This document shows positions 14,478-55,587 of a DNA stretch of 64,000 nt, in pieces. The first letter of the stretch is position 1; the number at the start of each line of letters is the position of its first letter. The stretch is taken from NCBI RefSeq assembly GCF_008642235.1, contig NZ_SJEV01000001.1, positions 1,816,400-1,880,399 of the forward strand. Reading direction: 5' to 3'. The stretch comes from Planctomonas psychrotolerans. Lineage in GTDB: Bacteria > Actinomycetota > Actinomycetes > Actinomycetales > Microbacteriaceae. The translations under genes and the position numbers were made by a program. Below the pieces are notes generated by a model. That model saw only the letters and a program-made list of their open reading frames with translations. It was not told the origin of the DNA and ran no database searches.

Positions 14478-14720
14478 GGTCCCTGAGCCTGTCTCATCGC
14501 CGGTCCCCGTCCCGGTCCCTGAGCCTGTCGAAGGGACGGCCTGCGTGCGTGCGTCCCTTCGACGAGCTCAGGGACCGTGGGGTCGCGTCGGGTCATACCG
14601 TCCCGGTCCCTGAGCCTGTCGAAGGGACGGCCTGCCTGCGTGCGTCCCTTCGACGAGCACAGGGACCGTGGGGTCGCGTCGGGTGGTTCCCATCCGGTCC
14701 CTGAGCCTGTCGAAGGGACG
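14478..14720. repeat. 91-bp tandem repeat built from inverted 24-bp intergenic repeats
   Basis: Copies of GGTCCCTGAG...TCGAAGGGAC start at 14514, 14605 and 14696, exactly 91 bp apart. Inverted copies start at 14553 and 14644. The first two units each pair a forward with an inverted copy and can fold into a large hairpin (14514-14576, 14605-14667); the third unit is cut after the forward copy. A broken copy lies at 14478-14493. This fills most of the 326-bp gap between the ABC operon and the next gene. Confidence 0.9.
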
Positions 14721-14787
14721 TTGCACCACCACGGGCCGCGGGCGGATGGCAGCGGCGGGGCATCCGGATGCCGACACGCCCCGTTGC

Positions 14788-36519: not shown

Positions 36520-36535
36520 CTGCGCCTTGCAGGGC

Positions 36536-36683
36536 GTCCCTTCGACGAGCTCAGGGACCGTATCAACGTGCGCCTCGGTCCCTGAGCCTGTCGAAGGGGC
36601 GCGACTCGCGTGCGTTACGTCCCTTCGACGAGCTCAGGGACCGGAGGGACGTGGACCTCGGTCCCTGAGCCTGTCGAAGGGGC
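36536..36683. repeat. Four alternating copies of the 24-bp intergenic repeat
   Basis: Inverted copies at 36536-36559 and 36619-36642 alternate with forward copies at 36577-36600 and 36660-36683. Adjacent copies can pair into hairpins. They lie between the convergent ends of map and the mtl regulator and may act as bidirectional terminators. Confidence 0.88.
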
Positions 36684-36704
36684 GCGACCGGAGGCGGCTC
36701 CCCG

Positions 36705-47757: not shown

Positions 47758-47766
47758 GACCGGTAG

Positions 47767-47850
47767 TGACACGGGGTGCTCGCGCAGGATGCGCGGGCTG
47801 AGATAACACCCGTCGAACCTGATCTAGTTAGAACTAGCGAAGGGATGTCG
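47767..47850 (+). promoter_or_regulatory. TPP riboswitch controlling thiM-thiE-thiD/tenA
   Basis: Conserved aptamer segments ACGGGGTGC, GGGCTGAGATAACACCC and GAACCTGATCTAG...CTAGCGAAGGGA are in order, and GACA/TGTC can close P1 (47768-47771 with 47846-47849). The 3' strand AAGGGA is also the Shine-Dalgarno sequence of thiM (ATG 47854), so thiamine pyrophosphate probably represses translation by masking it. Confidence 0.93.
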
Positions 47851-47853
47851 CGA

Positions 47854-48666
47854 ATGGGTATTCGCACGTCGAACGACCATGTCCACTTCAGCGCGGAGCT
47901 GCTCGACACGCTTCGACGCGAGACGCCGCTGGTGCAGAGCATCACGAACGCGGTGGTCACGAACTTCACTGCCAACGTGCTGTTGGCCATCGGTGCAGCT
48001 CCGGCGATGGTCGACATACCGGGCGAGGCGGGACCGTTCGCCCGGATCGCGTCCGGTCTGCTCGTGAACCTCGGGACACCGCAGGCCGAACCCCGCGAGG
48101 CCATGCTCGAGGCGGCGCGCGCGGCTGTGTCGGCGGGCACGCCGTGGGTGCTGGACCCCGTGGCGATCGGCTCGCTGCCCGTGCGCACCGCGCTCGCCTA
48201 CGACCTCGTGGAGCTGCGGCCGATGGTCGTGCGCGGAAACGCATCCGAGATCATCGCCCTCGCGAGGCTGGGCACCGGCGGGCGAGGTGTCGACGCGACC
48301 GATTCTGCCGAGAGTGCGCTGGACGCGGCGCGACAGATCGCGCGGGAGCACGGGTCGATCGTCGCCGTCTCCGGCGCGACCGACGTCATCACCGACGGTG
48401 CCACCGTGGTGCGGGCACGCAACGGGCACGCGCTGCTCACGAAAGTGACGGGAGGTGGCTGCGCGCTGGGTTCGGTGATGGCGGCCTTCGCGTCGCTCGA
48501 CGGAGATCGTCTCGCCACGACGGTGGCGGCGACTGTTTGCTACACGATCGCGGCCGAGCAGGCGGCAACGGTTGCCTCAGGGCCGGGGAGTTTCGCCGTC
48601 GCGTTCCTCGATCGGCTTGCCGGCCTCGACCCGGCGACGGTGCTCGAGCGGGCGGTGATCGAATGA
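47854..48666 (+). CDS. thiM: Hydroxyethylthiazole kinase
   Basis: Phosphorylates the thiazole alcohol for thiamine salvage, 270 aa. [49 protein letters not shown] and [16 protein letters not shown] are characteristic. ATG 47854 is chosen because AAGGGA lies about 8 bases before it; upstream in-frame ATGs fall within the riboswitch. Confidence 0.94.
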
Positions 48667-51650: not shown

Positions 51651-51716
51651 GAGTTTTCTCCACCTCAGTCAAGGCGAAAGGAGGCGATCGGCGCCAACGC
51701 GGGCGTGATCGTTCCA

Positions 51717-51800
51717 TGACATCCCTTCGCTAGTTCGAACTAGATCAGGTTCAACGGGTGTCATCTCAGCCGGCCGTTTCGTGGTCGGCACCCCGTGTCG
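51717..51800 (-). promoter_or_regulatory. Second TPP riboswitch, upstream of the SDR gene
   Basis: Read on the - strand: GACACGGGGTGCC, GGCTGAGATGACACCC, GTTGAACCTGATCTAG...CTAGCGAAGGGATGTC, with GACA/TGTC closing P1. It is nearly the same as the thiM aptamer. The 66 bp between aptamer and ATG contain a weak CGATC/GATCG stem and a GGTGGAG ribosome site, so the mechanism (termination or translation) is not obvious. Confidence 0.92.
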
Positions 51801-51983
51801 TTGGGGACGAGTACACGGAGGGGCCGGTCCGGCGAACGCCCATCACTGCGGAGGCCGGCGGAGGTCGATGACCAGTTCACTGTGTGGGTGCGTGCGATCG
51901 CAACGCACGGGTCGCTCGGTGATGGGGGTCTCGCCCGTGGTGAGGGGGGGAGGAGGAGCCGGGGCTGGGGAGGAGAGGGTCGT

Positions 51984-53070: not shown

Positions 53071-53330
53071 GGTCCCTGATTCGTCAAAGGGACGTCCCCA
53101 TACGGTCCCTGAGCCTGTCGAAGGGACGTCCCCATACGGTCCCTGAGCTTGTCGAAGGGACGCAACCCACGGTCCCTGAGCTTGTCGAAGGGACCCGACC
53201 ACTCGGTCCCTGAGCCTGTCGAACGGACGTTGCCACGCGGTCCCTGAGCTTGTCGAAGGGACGTTCCCACGCGGTCCCTGAGCTTGTCGAAGGGACGTTC
53301 CCACGCGGTCCCTGCGCTTGTCGAAGGGAC
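53071..53330 (+). repeat. 34-bp periodic array, eight copies of the 24-bp repeat
   Basis: Copies start at 53071 (degenerate), 53104, 53138, 53171, 53205, 53239, 53273 and 53307, so the period is 33-34 bp. All are in the same direction (GGTCCCTGAG...TCGAAGGGAC). The 9-10-bp spacers are themselves alike (GTTCCCACGC, GTCCCCATAC). With the following elements it fills the 760-bp gap 53034-53793. Confidence 0.92.
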
Positions 53331-53350
53331 GCGATTGGTTGCGGTCGTGT

Positions 53351-53430
53351 GGGGGTGCGGAGGTGGCGTGCTGGGGCTCCGCCCATAGATGCCCACCGAC
53401 CCCCGAGCCCCACCACGCCACCTCCGCCCC
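53351..53430 (+). repeat. Left 80-bp hairpin element of the HNH module
   Basis: A 67-nt core (53359-53425) starts GGAGGTGGCGTG and ends CACGCCACCTCC, and its arms pair into a long hairpin. The identical core occurs as an exact reverse complement at 55439-55505; including flanks the near-match covers 80 bp. Confidence 0.92.
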
Positions 53431-53485
53431 GAACTTTCCGGGACGCCTTTCGGTCCCGAGGTGGGCTTCGGGCTGAGAAGAGTAC

Positions 53486-53679
53486 GGCCCCTGAGCTTGT
53501 CGAACGGGCGCCACCCCGCGGTCCCTGAGCCTGTCGAAGGGACGCACGCATACGGTCCCTGAGCTTGTCGAATTGGCGTTCCCATACGGTCCCTGAGCCT
53601 GTCGAAGGGGCGCCACCCCGCGGTCCGTGAGCCCGTCGCAGGAACCCGACCACCCGGTCCCTGAGCCTGTCGAAGGGAC
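53486..53679 (+). repeat. Second 34-bp periodic array, six copies
   Basis: Copies start at 53486, 53520, 53554, 53588, 53622 and 53656, exactly 34 bp apart, same direction as the first array but out of register with it. Several copies are degenerate (CGAACGGGCG, CGAATTGGCG, CGTCGCAGGA). Confidence 0.9.
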
Positions 53680-53747
53680 ATAAGGCGCCGTCGACCGCCC
53701 CCTCTTCTCCTCCACAAGCTCGACCGAGAAACGGCCACTGACCGGGG

Positions 53748-53776
53748 TTGACCTCCGGGCGAGAATGTCGTAGGTG
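53748..53776 (+). promoter_or_regulatory. Promoter of the HNH gene
   Basis: TTGACC (53748-53753), 17-bp spacer, TAGGTG (53771-53776). The start would fall near 53783, just upstream of ATG 53794. This argues against the in-frame GTG 53776 as start codon. Confidence 0.55.
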
Positions 53777-53793
53777 TGTGCGATGGTACCTCC

Positions 53794-55242
53794 ATGAAAG
53801 CCCCGGACGACGAAGCCACAACCGAGCAGAAACCCGAGGACGCCGGCCGTGCGATCGCCCGGATCCAAGCACTCGCCACCGAATGCGCCGACGCACTCCC
53901 GTGCACCACCATTCCGGACCTCACCGACGCCGACACGCTCGCGCTGGTGGCCGAGGTCGAACGCCTCGGCCGTCGCATCGACGCCCTACGGGTCGCCCTG
54001 GCCGGTGAGGTCGCGGACCGTTCCCGCCCGTCCCGCGGCGCGCGCGGTCTGGCCGTGTCCCGGGGCTGTCGCACTCCCGCGGATCTCATTGAGCGGCTGA
54101 CACAGGTGTCCGGCACCACCGCCCGCCGGCGGGTAGTCCTCGCCAGTGACGTTCGTCGCGACCCGTTCCCGGGTGGCGACCGCACGCGCGCCCGGTTCGA
54201 CCTCGTCGCTGGCGCGCTCGAGGACGGCCGGATCGGCATCGACGCGGCCACGGTCATCACGAAGGGCCTCACCCCGCTTCTCGCTCACGGGTCGTTGGAC
54301 GAGCTGAAGAAGGCGGAGACCGAACTCGTCGCCGCTGCAAGCGGCACCGGCCCTGACTCGACGGTGCCGGCGTCGGCGGACTCGGTGCGGGTGATGGTGT
54401 GCGTGTGGCAGGCGAAGATCGACCCCGACGGCCTTGATCCGGCGGAGGACAGGGTGATGGCGGTGCGGGACTTCCGGTTCGGTCCGGAACGCAACGGGTT
54501 GCTGCATGGTTCGTTCCGGCTCATGGCGGAAGCCGGAGGTCGGGTGAAGGCCTTGTTCGACGCGTACCTGGCCCCGACCACCGCACCCGCGTTCATGTCC
54601 GAAGAAGAATGCGCAGCCGCGGAAGCGGAAGGCGGCAAAGACCTACGGACGCCGGCTCAGCAGCGGCATGACATCTTCGTCGCGATCATCGACGCCATGG
54701 CGAGAAGCGGCCAGGCGCCCGAGGTCGGTGGTGCTGCACCCACCGTGCTCGTGTCGGTCCGCGCCGAGGACCTCGAAGCGAACCGGGGTGTTGGGTGGTC
54801 GGATCGGGTGGAGGGTCCGGTGTCGATGCGGACGGTGCGGCAGCTGGTGTGCACCGGCGGCATCCAAAAGGTCGTCCTCACGACTGAGGGGCGGATCGTG
54901 CAACTCGGTTCACCGGAGCGGTGCTTCACCCCACAGCAGCGACGCGCGATCTCCCTCCGTGACGGTGGCTGCGTCATTCCCGGCTGCACCATCCCCGCCG
55001 GGTGGTGTGAGATCCACCACGTGGTCCCGGACCGGGATGGCGGGCCGACGCACACGGATAACGGTGTGCTGTTGTGTTGGTTCCATCACCGCACCATCGA
55101 CACCTCCGAGTGGCAGATCCGGATGCGGGACGGGGTCCCCGAGGTGAAACCGCCGCCGTGGATCGAGTACTTCGGGAAGTGGCGACCCGCCACCAGATCC
55201 CGCACCCGACTCCTCGACCGGCACCACACCCCACCCGACTAG
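53794..55242 (+). CDS. DUF222 / HNH endonuclease (13E12 repeat family)
   Basis: 482 aa. The N-terminal ~330 residues match the DUF222 region typical of actinobacterial 13E12-type proteins (LTDADTLALVAEVERLGRRIDALRVALAGEVADRS, GARGLAVSRGCRTPADLIERLTQVSGTTARRRV). The C-terminal HNH domain has CVIPGCTIPAGWCEIHHVVPDRDGGPTHTDNGVLLCWFHHR, with paired zinc cysteines, the catalytic HH, the central Asn and the terminal HH. The protein is probably a DNA nickase or nuclease. The gene is bracketed by inverted copies of the same repeat blocks and followed by a 12-bp hairpin, so it looks like a discrete module that can spread. Confidence 0.88.
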   Translation: MKAPDDEATTEQKPEDAGRAIARIQALATECADALPCTTIPDLTDADTLALVAEVERLGRRIDALRVALAGEVADRSRPSRGARGLAVSRGCRTPADLIERLTQVSGTTARRRVVLASDVRRDPFPGGDRTRARFDLVAGALEDGRIGIDAATVITKGLTPLLAHGSLDELKKAETELVAAASGTGPDSTVPASADSVRVMVCVWQAKIDPDGLDPAEDRVMAVRDFRFGPERNGLLHGSFRLMAEAGGRVKALFDAYLAPTTAPAFMSEEECAAAEAEGGKDLRTPAQQRHDIFVAIIDAMARSGQAPEVGGAAPTVLVSVRAEDLEANRGVGWSDRVEGPVSMRTVRQLVCTGGIQKVVLTTEGRIVQLGSPERCFTPQQRRAISLRDGGCVIPGCTIPAGWCEIHHVVPDRDGGPTHTDNGVLLCWFHHRTIDTSEWQIRMRDGVPEVKPPPWIEYFGKWRPATRSRTRLLDRHHTPPD

Positions 55243-55282
55243 TCCCGCGCCGGGGAGACGCGTCGACCGGTAGCCACGGTCG

Positions 55283-55309
55283 CCGGTCCTGTCGAAGCGA
55301 CAGGACCGG
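55283..55309 (+). terminator. Hairpin after the HNH gene
   Basis: Perfect 12-bp stem CCGGTCCTGTCG (55283-55294) with 55298-55309 and an AAG loop; no T-run. Probable terminator. Confidence 0.6.
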
Positions 55310-55319
55310 TGCGGCCAGT

Positions 55320-55379
55320 GTCCCTTCGACGAGCTCAGGGACCGTGTGCGAATGCGTCCCTTCGAGAAGCTCAGGGACC
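55320..55379 (-). repeat. Two inverted copies of the 24-bp repeat, right flank of the HNH module
   Basis: Copies at 55320-55343 and 55356-55379 run opposite to the left-flank arrays, 36 bp apart. With the following elements they fill 55243-55599. A further stem (55399-55407 with 55428-55436) precedes the hairpin element. Confidence 0.88.
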
Positions 55380-55433
55380 GTGTTCCGGTCAGTCCCCTCC
55401 CCAACTCGGGAACGTACGTCATTCGAGGAGTTG

Positions 55434-55513
55434 GGGGCGGAGGTGGCGTGGTGGGGCTCGGGGGTCGGTGGGCATCTATGGGCGGAGCCCCAGCACGCCA
55501 CCTCCGCACCCCC
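55434..55513 (-). repeat. Right 80-bp hairpin element of the HNH module
   Basis: Reverse complement of 53351-53430; the 67-nt core (55439-55505) is identical base for base. Confidence 0.92.
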
Positions 55514-55515
55514 CG

Positions 55516-55573
55516 GTCCCTTCGACAGGCTCAGGGACTGTGGGGGTGCAAGCCTTTCGACGAGCACGGGACC
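55516..55573 (-). repeat. Outer pair of inverted 24-bp repeats
   Basis: Copies at 55516-55539 and (degenerate) 55552-55573, 36 bp apart, again opposite to the left flank. They end 15 bp before the truA -10. Confidence 0.82.
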
Positions 55574-55587
55574 GGGCGGTGCGCTTC

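Follow-up and report, generated by a model that had tools for sequence, protein, structure and literature searches.

The window, a 64,000-nucleotide stretch of the Planctomonas psychrotolerans genome, contains a DUF222/HNH gene at 53794..55242 (+), which encodes 482 amino acids from the ATG at 53794 and whose open reading frame opens upstream at the GTG at 53776. On its left, an outer array of seven same-direction copies of a short repeat, GGTCCCTGAGCYYGTCGAAGGGAC, with a period of about 34 bp, occupies 53104..53330 (+) and is preceded by a degenerate extra copy starting near 53077. This repeat is referred to below as the REP. Next come an 85-nt arm at 53351..53435 (+), which holds a 67-nt core that folds into a hairpin with a conserved loop and a 22-bp stem (DNA folding z-score of -7.1), and an inner array of six same-direction REPs at 53486..53679 (+). 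The interval that separates this inner array from the gene (53680..53793, +) was assigned by its position as the leader/promoter region. The same parts recur in inverted orientation on the right: two inverted REPs (55320-55343 and 55356-55379, -), the right 85-nt arm, in which the hairpin core is inverted (55429..55513, -), and an outer inverted REP (55516..55539, -), with a degenerate inverted copy near 55553-55576 beyond it. The 24-nt REPs face inward, and the two left arrays together have 13, against three clear ones on the right (starting at 55320, 55356 and 55516); with three clear copies and one degenerate copy, the right flank is shorter than the left. At up to three mismatches the 24-mer was found 24 times in the window against a chance expectation of 0.00, and such a 24-mer never occurred in shuffled versions of the window.

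The two arms are 99% complementary over their 85 nt, with a single mismatch at 53431. Since this mismatch falls outside the cores, the 67-nt cores are identical, as the sequence-only reading of this DNA had claimed, and the mirror-image repeats that it described around the HNH gene are confirmed by the arms and the inward-facing REP arrays. Its estimate of a cassette of about 2.5 kb also agreed with the distance from the GNAT stop to the truA start, which is 2566 nt here vs 22 nt at the same locus in both sister species (G001 and G002), so an insert of about 2.5 kb is present in this lineage. The empty site that the earlier reading had proposed to seek in relatives was therefore present in both, and an empty site in a relative is a feature of homing elements. 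As for the features of DDE-type insertion sequences, the cassette gene matched only DUF222/HNH, and the sister junctions were too diverged for a target-site duplication to be read. Elsewhere in the window, two TPP riboswitches at 47762-47862 (+) and 51705-51805 (-) face each other around thiamine genes (RF00059, above the gathering score).

The window protein scored 99 bits against PF02720 (cut-off 24.4), with HNH_2 and HNH also above their cut-offs, and the gene belongs by its domains to the DUF222/HNH (13E12) family. Its HNH residues are H408/H409, N423 and H431/H432. An AlphaFold model of the protein from five sequences was poor (pLDDT 43), and a PDB profile search gave weak matches, solely to the HNH modules of a McrA-type enzyme (6ghc) and of IscB. 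A scan of genome contigs returned four named relatives of about 50% identity, from Agromyces and from Micrococcales/Microbacteriaceae MAGs, and no REP of the window type was found at these four loci. Viral contigs yielded no relatives of the protein, no REP and no hairpin loop, and a plasmid search gave distant DUF222 matches only. In clade B of this genome (L061-L068) and in L146-L160 of G001, the central HNH residue is D instead of N, and the motif reads TDIADGVLLC vs THTDNGVLLC; the replacement holds across whole subfamilies, which are still placed behind REP arrays.

The REP palindrome as the cassette border

The REP is a short palindrome, C-GGTCSCTGAGCYYGTCGAAGSGAC-G, with a conserved C before and a conserved G after the 24-mer. 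Its stem pair 5-21 was C-G in 595, G-C in 128 and A-T in 46 of 821 units, and since the pair takes one of these forms in 769 units, the palindrome is kept. The genome surveyed (3.29 Mb, two contigs) contained 457 exact copies of CCCTGAGCNNGTCGAAGGG, and the reversed control contained none. Inverted REP pairs were found at 14514 and 36536, and a high-copy palindrome with inverted pairs is what marks a REP system. In the window, REPIN-type clusters of alternating + and - REPs lie at 14499-14721, where a 91-nt unit is repeated in tandem, and at 36535-36688, with no DUF222 gene adjoining either. REP positions were read near DUF222 genes and, elsewhere, among the first 100 matches listed. The cassette is present in about 20 copies in this genome, most of them with REPs at their borders, and the REP itself in hundreds. 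In this genome 105 of 457 exact REP cores, and in G001 85 of 218, lie no more than 1.2 kb from a DUF222 gene, an enrichment of about 10-fold over the share of the DNA scanned.

The nearest upstream REP within 1.2 kb pointed toward the gene in all 101 DUF222 genes that have one, a count over related copies, not independent events, which covers several subfamilies in six genomes of four genera (17 of the 21 genes examined in this genome, G000; 37 of 37 in G001; 19 of 19 in G002; 11 of 11 in G067; 7 of 9 in G023; 10 of 18 in G155). No upstream REP was present at 8 of 18 genes in G155, which is REP-rich and belongs to another genus, and at 4 of 21 in this genome. A reverse-oriented REP within 600 bp past the stop was present at 76 of 115 DUF222 genes, distributed as 34/37 in G001, 18/19 in G002, 9/11 in G067, 5/9 in G023, 2/18 in G155 and 8/21 in this genome, whose clade-B genes have REPs on the upstream side only. 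In L061-L066 of this clade, similarity ends a few bases past the stop (CAACGCACATGA), giving a sharp 3' end with no downstream REP.

Cassette similarity stops sharply at the REP, which is the defining end of the unit. In one aligned G001 subfamily, identity stayed at the background level (0.27-0.34) outside the cassette to within four bases of the REP, reached 0.90-0.95 in the terminal REPs and was intermediate further inside. The 3' REP variant of one subfamily was the same in both sister species. The distance from the last REP to the gene was nearly constant within subfamilies and similar among clade A copies.

Distribution, homogenization and site turnover

DUF222/HNH genes are present in most genomes of a 300-genome sample of the family, and every genome with at least 10 REPs encodes DUF222, against a base rate of 185/300 (a raw count that ignores relatedness). 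Y1_Tnp (PF01797), the RAYT class of transposase, was found in none of 20 REP-carrying genomes from seven genera, this one included, while the control genomes were positive; an origin from RAYTs was rejected for this reason. A second palindrome, GCTGCCGCGCSCTSCGSGCTTGCC, occurred only in genera g8 and g12 among the 300 genomes, at low copy. These two genera lack the window-type REP, and GCTGCCGCGCSCTSCGSGCTTGCC adjoins their DUF222 genes; among the matches listed, many were at DUF222 genes. In g8 its + copies are in the 5' coding region and its - copies past the stop, and in g12 it is found mainly as a pair past the stop. The 5' palindrome of g8 (L226-L234; genomes G009 and G263) is located within the DUF222 coding region, not upstream of it. 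Between the two genera the palindrome differs by a compensatory change, GCGC/GCGC vs GCCC/GGGC. The presence of another palindrome at the DUF222 genes of g8 and g12 means that palindrome and protein change together. At the DUF222 genes of G070 and G118, both of which were examined, no repeat was seen.

Comparison of the two sister species showed that all 19 compared G002 loci have both flanks in common with a G001 locus; these sites are therefore old, and new insertion is rare there. At these 19 sites, whose flanks are 78-96% identical, identity of the gene to its ortholog was 79-84%, and in every case a paralog from its own genome was closer, at 85-94%, which implies that the cassettes are homogenized within genomes. 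At four-fold sites the orthologs diverge by about 0.49, compared with 0.12-0.43 for the best paralog, and in the gene tree the copies cluster by genome inside each subfamily. Alignment of 12 orthologous sites gave identities mostly of 0.85-0.97 in the flanks, 0.4-0.6 in the REP block and 0.75-0.85 in the gene. Either whole cassettes are overwritten from their own genome, or the sites that they occupy see repeated replacement. Among the G000 sites there is none whose two flanks both match G001 or G002; over longer periods, then, cassettes also settle at new sites. The cassettes appear to be mobile and to overwrite one another without the enzyme that is usually linked to such palindromes.

Proposed mechanism and alternative explanations

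On balance, we consider it probable that the REP-bounded HNH cassette is a mobile unit spread by nuclease-promoted copying or gene conversion. The HNH protein would recognize the REP hairpin or a nearby cassette sequence and nick or cut there, and repair templated by another cassette would then copy the whole unit from REP to REP. Such homing-like gene conversion would act between occupied sites and now and then into new ones, and free REPs and REP pairs may be by-products or miniature derivatives of the cassettes. The sequence-only reading had suggested an HNH-assisted selfish element. Its element-like character was borne out by the sharp ends, the roughly 20 copies per genome and the empty sister site; spread driven by the HNH protein is still what we infer, now with stronger indirect support. 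A broader proposal is put forward more tentatively: the DUF222/HNH proteins may be the missing mobilizers of a REP class, independent of HUH enzymes, with the nuclease acting at the palindromes, copying the cassette, seeding free REPs and REPINs, and switching palindrome together with the protein between genera. Several points count against the nuclease-driven model: the rarity of new insertion at the 19 compared G002 loci, the genes with no upstream REP in G155 and in this genome, the REPs of clade B on the upstream side only, the DUF222 genes of G070 and G118, where no repeat was seen, the central Asn to Asp replacement in the HNH motif of clade B, and RecA-mediated conversion between repeats, which would need no nuclease.

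The last point leads to the main rival, RecA conversion combined with movement of the REPs by another enzyme. Here an unrelated host transposase, or one that has since vanished, would move the REPs, the DUF222/HNH gene would be a passenger, and RecA recombination would homogenize the copies. RecA conversion works on any multicopy family, of the 457 exact REP cores counted here, 352 lie away from DUF222, and some REP classes have no known dedicated enzyme (PMC3733652). Nevertheless, every REP-rich genome encodes DUF222, no Y1 transposase was found in the 20 REP-carrying genomes, and a mere passenger would not be expected to turn up again beside another, unrelated palindrome, as DUF222 does in other genera. 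This explanation is considered rather unlikely.

Less probable still is a regulatory or terminator role, in which the upstream array would serve as an autoregulatory operator, the downstream palindromes would end transcription, and the gene family would be multicopy and immobile. The nearly constant distance from the last REP to the gene within subfamilies, the palindromes directly past the stop and the 19 of 19 sites common to two species are consistent with such a role. It is opposed by the hundreds of REPs away from DUF222 and by the loss of similarity between copies exactly outside the REP. The window site is moreover empty in both sister species, which have both flanks of no G000 site.

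The hairpin core was examined as a further candidate. Among the 11 cores with this stem in the genome, ten are located at eight DUF222 genes, which upholds the earlier tie between core and DUF222/HNH genes, and one (C1:989110) lies alone in a REP array without a gene. The expectation that most cores occur as inverted pairs failed, as two cores were present at 2 of the 8 loci and a single core at the other 6. By the tree, 8 of 10 clade-A DUF222 genes carry a core, and a search of both sister species found no core with this stem. Because their core-less DUF222 genes are still bounded by REPs, it is the REP that defines the end, with the core as a local passenger. The loop CGGGGTTCGGYGGGCATCYWTGGGCG is common to hairpins in about ten genera, each with its own long stem (window 53351-53435; L012, L013, L022; L106-L113; L240-L269). 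The stems, of 20-29 bp, are hypervariable and nearly perfectly complementary: similarity within the family is 92% in the loops and 37% in the arms, and arms pair at 23 of 26 positions with their own partner vs 12.6 after swapping. Many of these hairpins sit between gene ends, often convergent ones. The family has no entry in Rfam 15, and a known RNA was rejected as an identity for the core, as Rfam gave only sub-threshold matches to miRNA-type hairpins. The core is one hairpin of this intergenic family, which is unrelated to the cassette; a single sub-lineage took it up, and it was then multiplied together with the cassette. For the complementary change of the stems, template-switch correction or inverted duplication can be offered as guesses. 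That the core is itself the mobile unit, a transposon terminal inverted repeat with the REPs as landing pads, was rejected as highly improbable: the cores do face inward at DUF222 genes in every case and the best copies are 98-100% identical, but the paired cores at only 2 of 8 loci, the core-less REP-bounded cassettes of the sister species and the membership of the core in a wider family, whose stems are unrelated and which lies away from DUF222, all stand against it.

Relation to known repeat systems

REP palindromes rank among the commonest bacterial repeats, and their proposed mobilizers are Y1 HUH transposases. To our knowledge, DUF222/HNH genes have no known function. The link between the two offers a testable function for the protein and a candidate mobilizer for the palindrome, as well as a natural example of concerted evolution among dispersed sites across a genome. 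A full-text literature search, with most subscription journals outside its scope, returned no paper describing an association of DUF222 with REPs or inverted repeats. The cassette also bears on the question of REP classes without a transposase (PMC3733652). Di Nocera (2013) described CGTC-tagged REPs with no dedicated transposase, in families reported from five phyla, actinobacteria not among them (PMC3733652). The present REP resembles these in lacking such an enzyme and differs from them in its tag and stem rules.

The cassette gene shares its protein family (PF02720 with HNH), its multicopy state and its repeat-like character with 13E12/REP13E12, but for that family the papers searched do not describe ends made of REP palindromes, concerted evolution or a switch of palindrome. 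With HNH homing endonuclease elements it has in common the HNH gene, the conversion-like spread and the empty site. Unlike them, it occupies dispersed paralogous sites and not one allelic site, its ends are palindromic REPs, and cleavage by its protein is putative. The likeness to the REP/RAYT systems (REPtrons, REPINs, TnpA-REP) lies in the hundreds of short palindromes, single or in inverted pairs, in their inverted arrangement around a putative mobilizing gene and in a palindrome type that follows the gene lineage. In contrast to those systems, the flanked gene here is DUF222/HNH and not a Y1 HUH transposase, the cassette gene itself is multicopy and homogenized, and the foot of the palindrome carries no GTAG-type tag but a C before and a G after the 24-mer.
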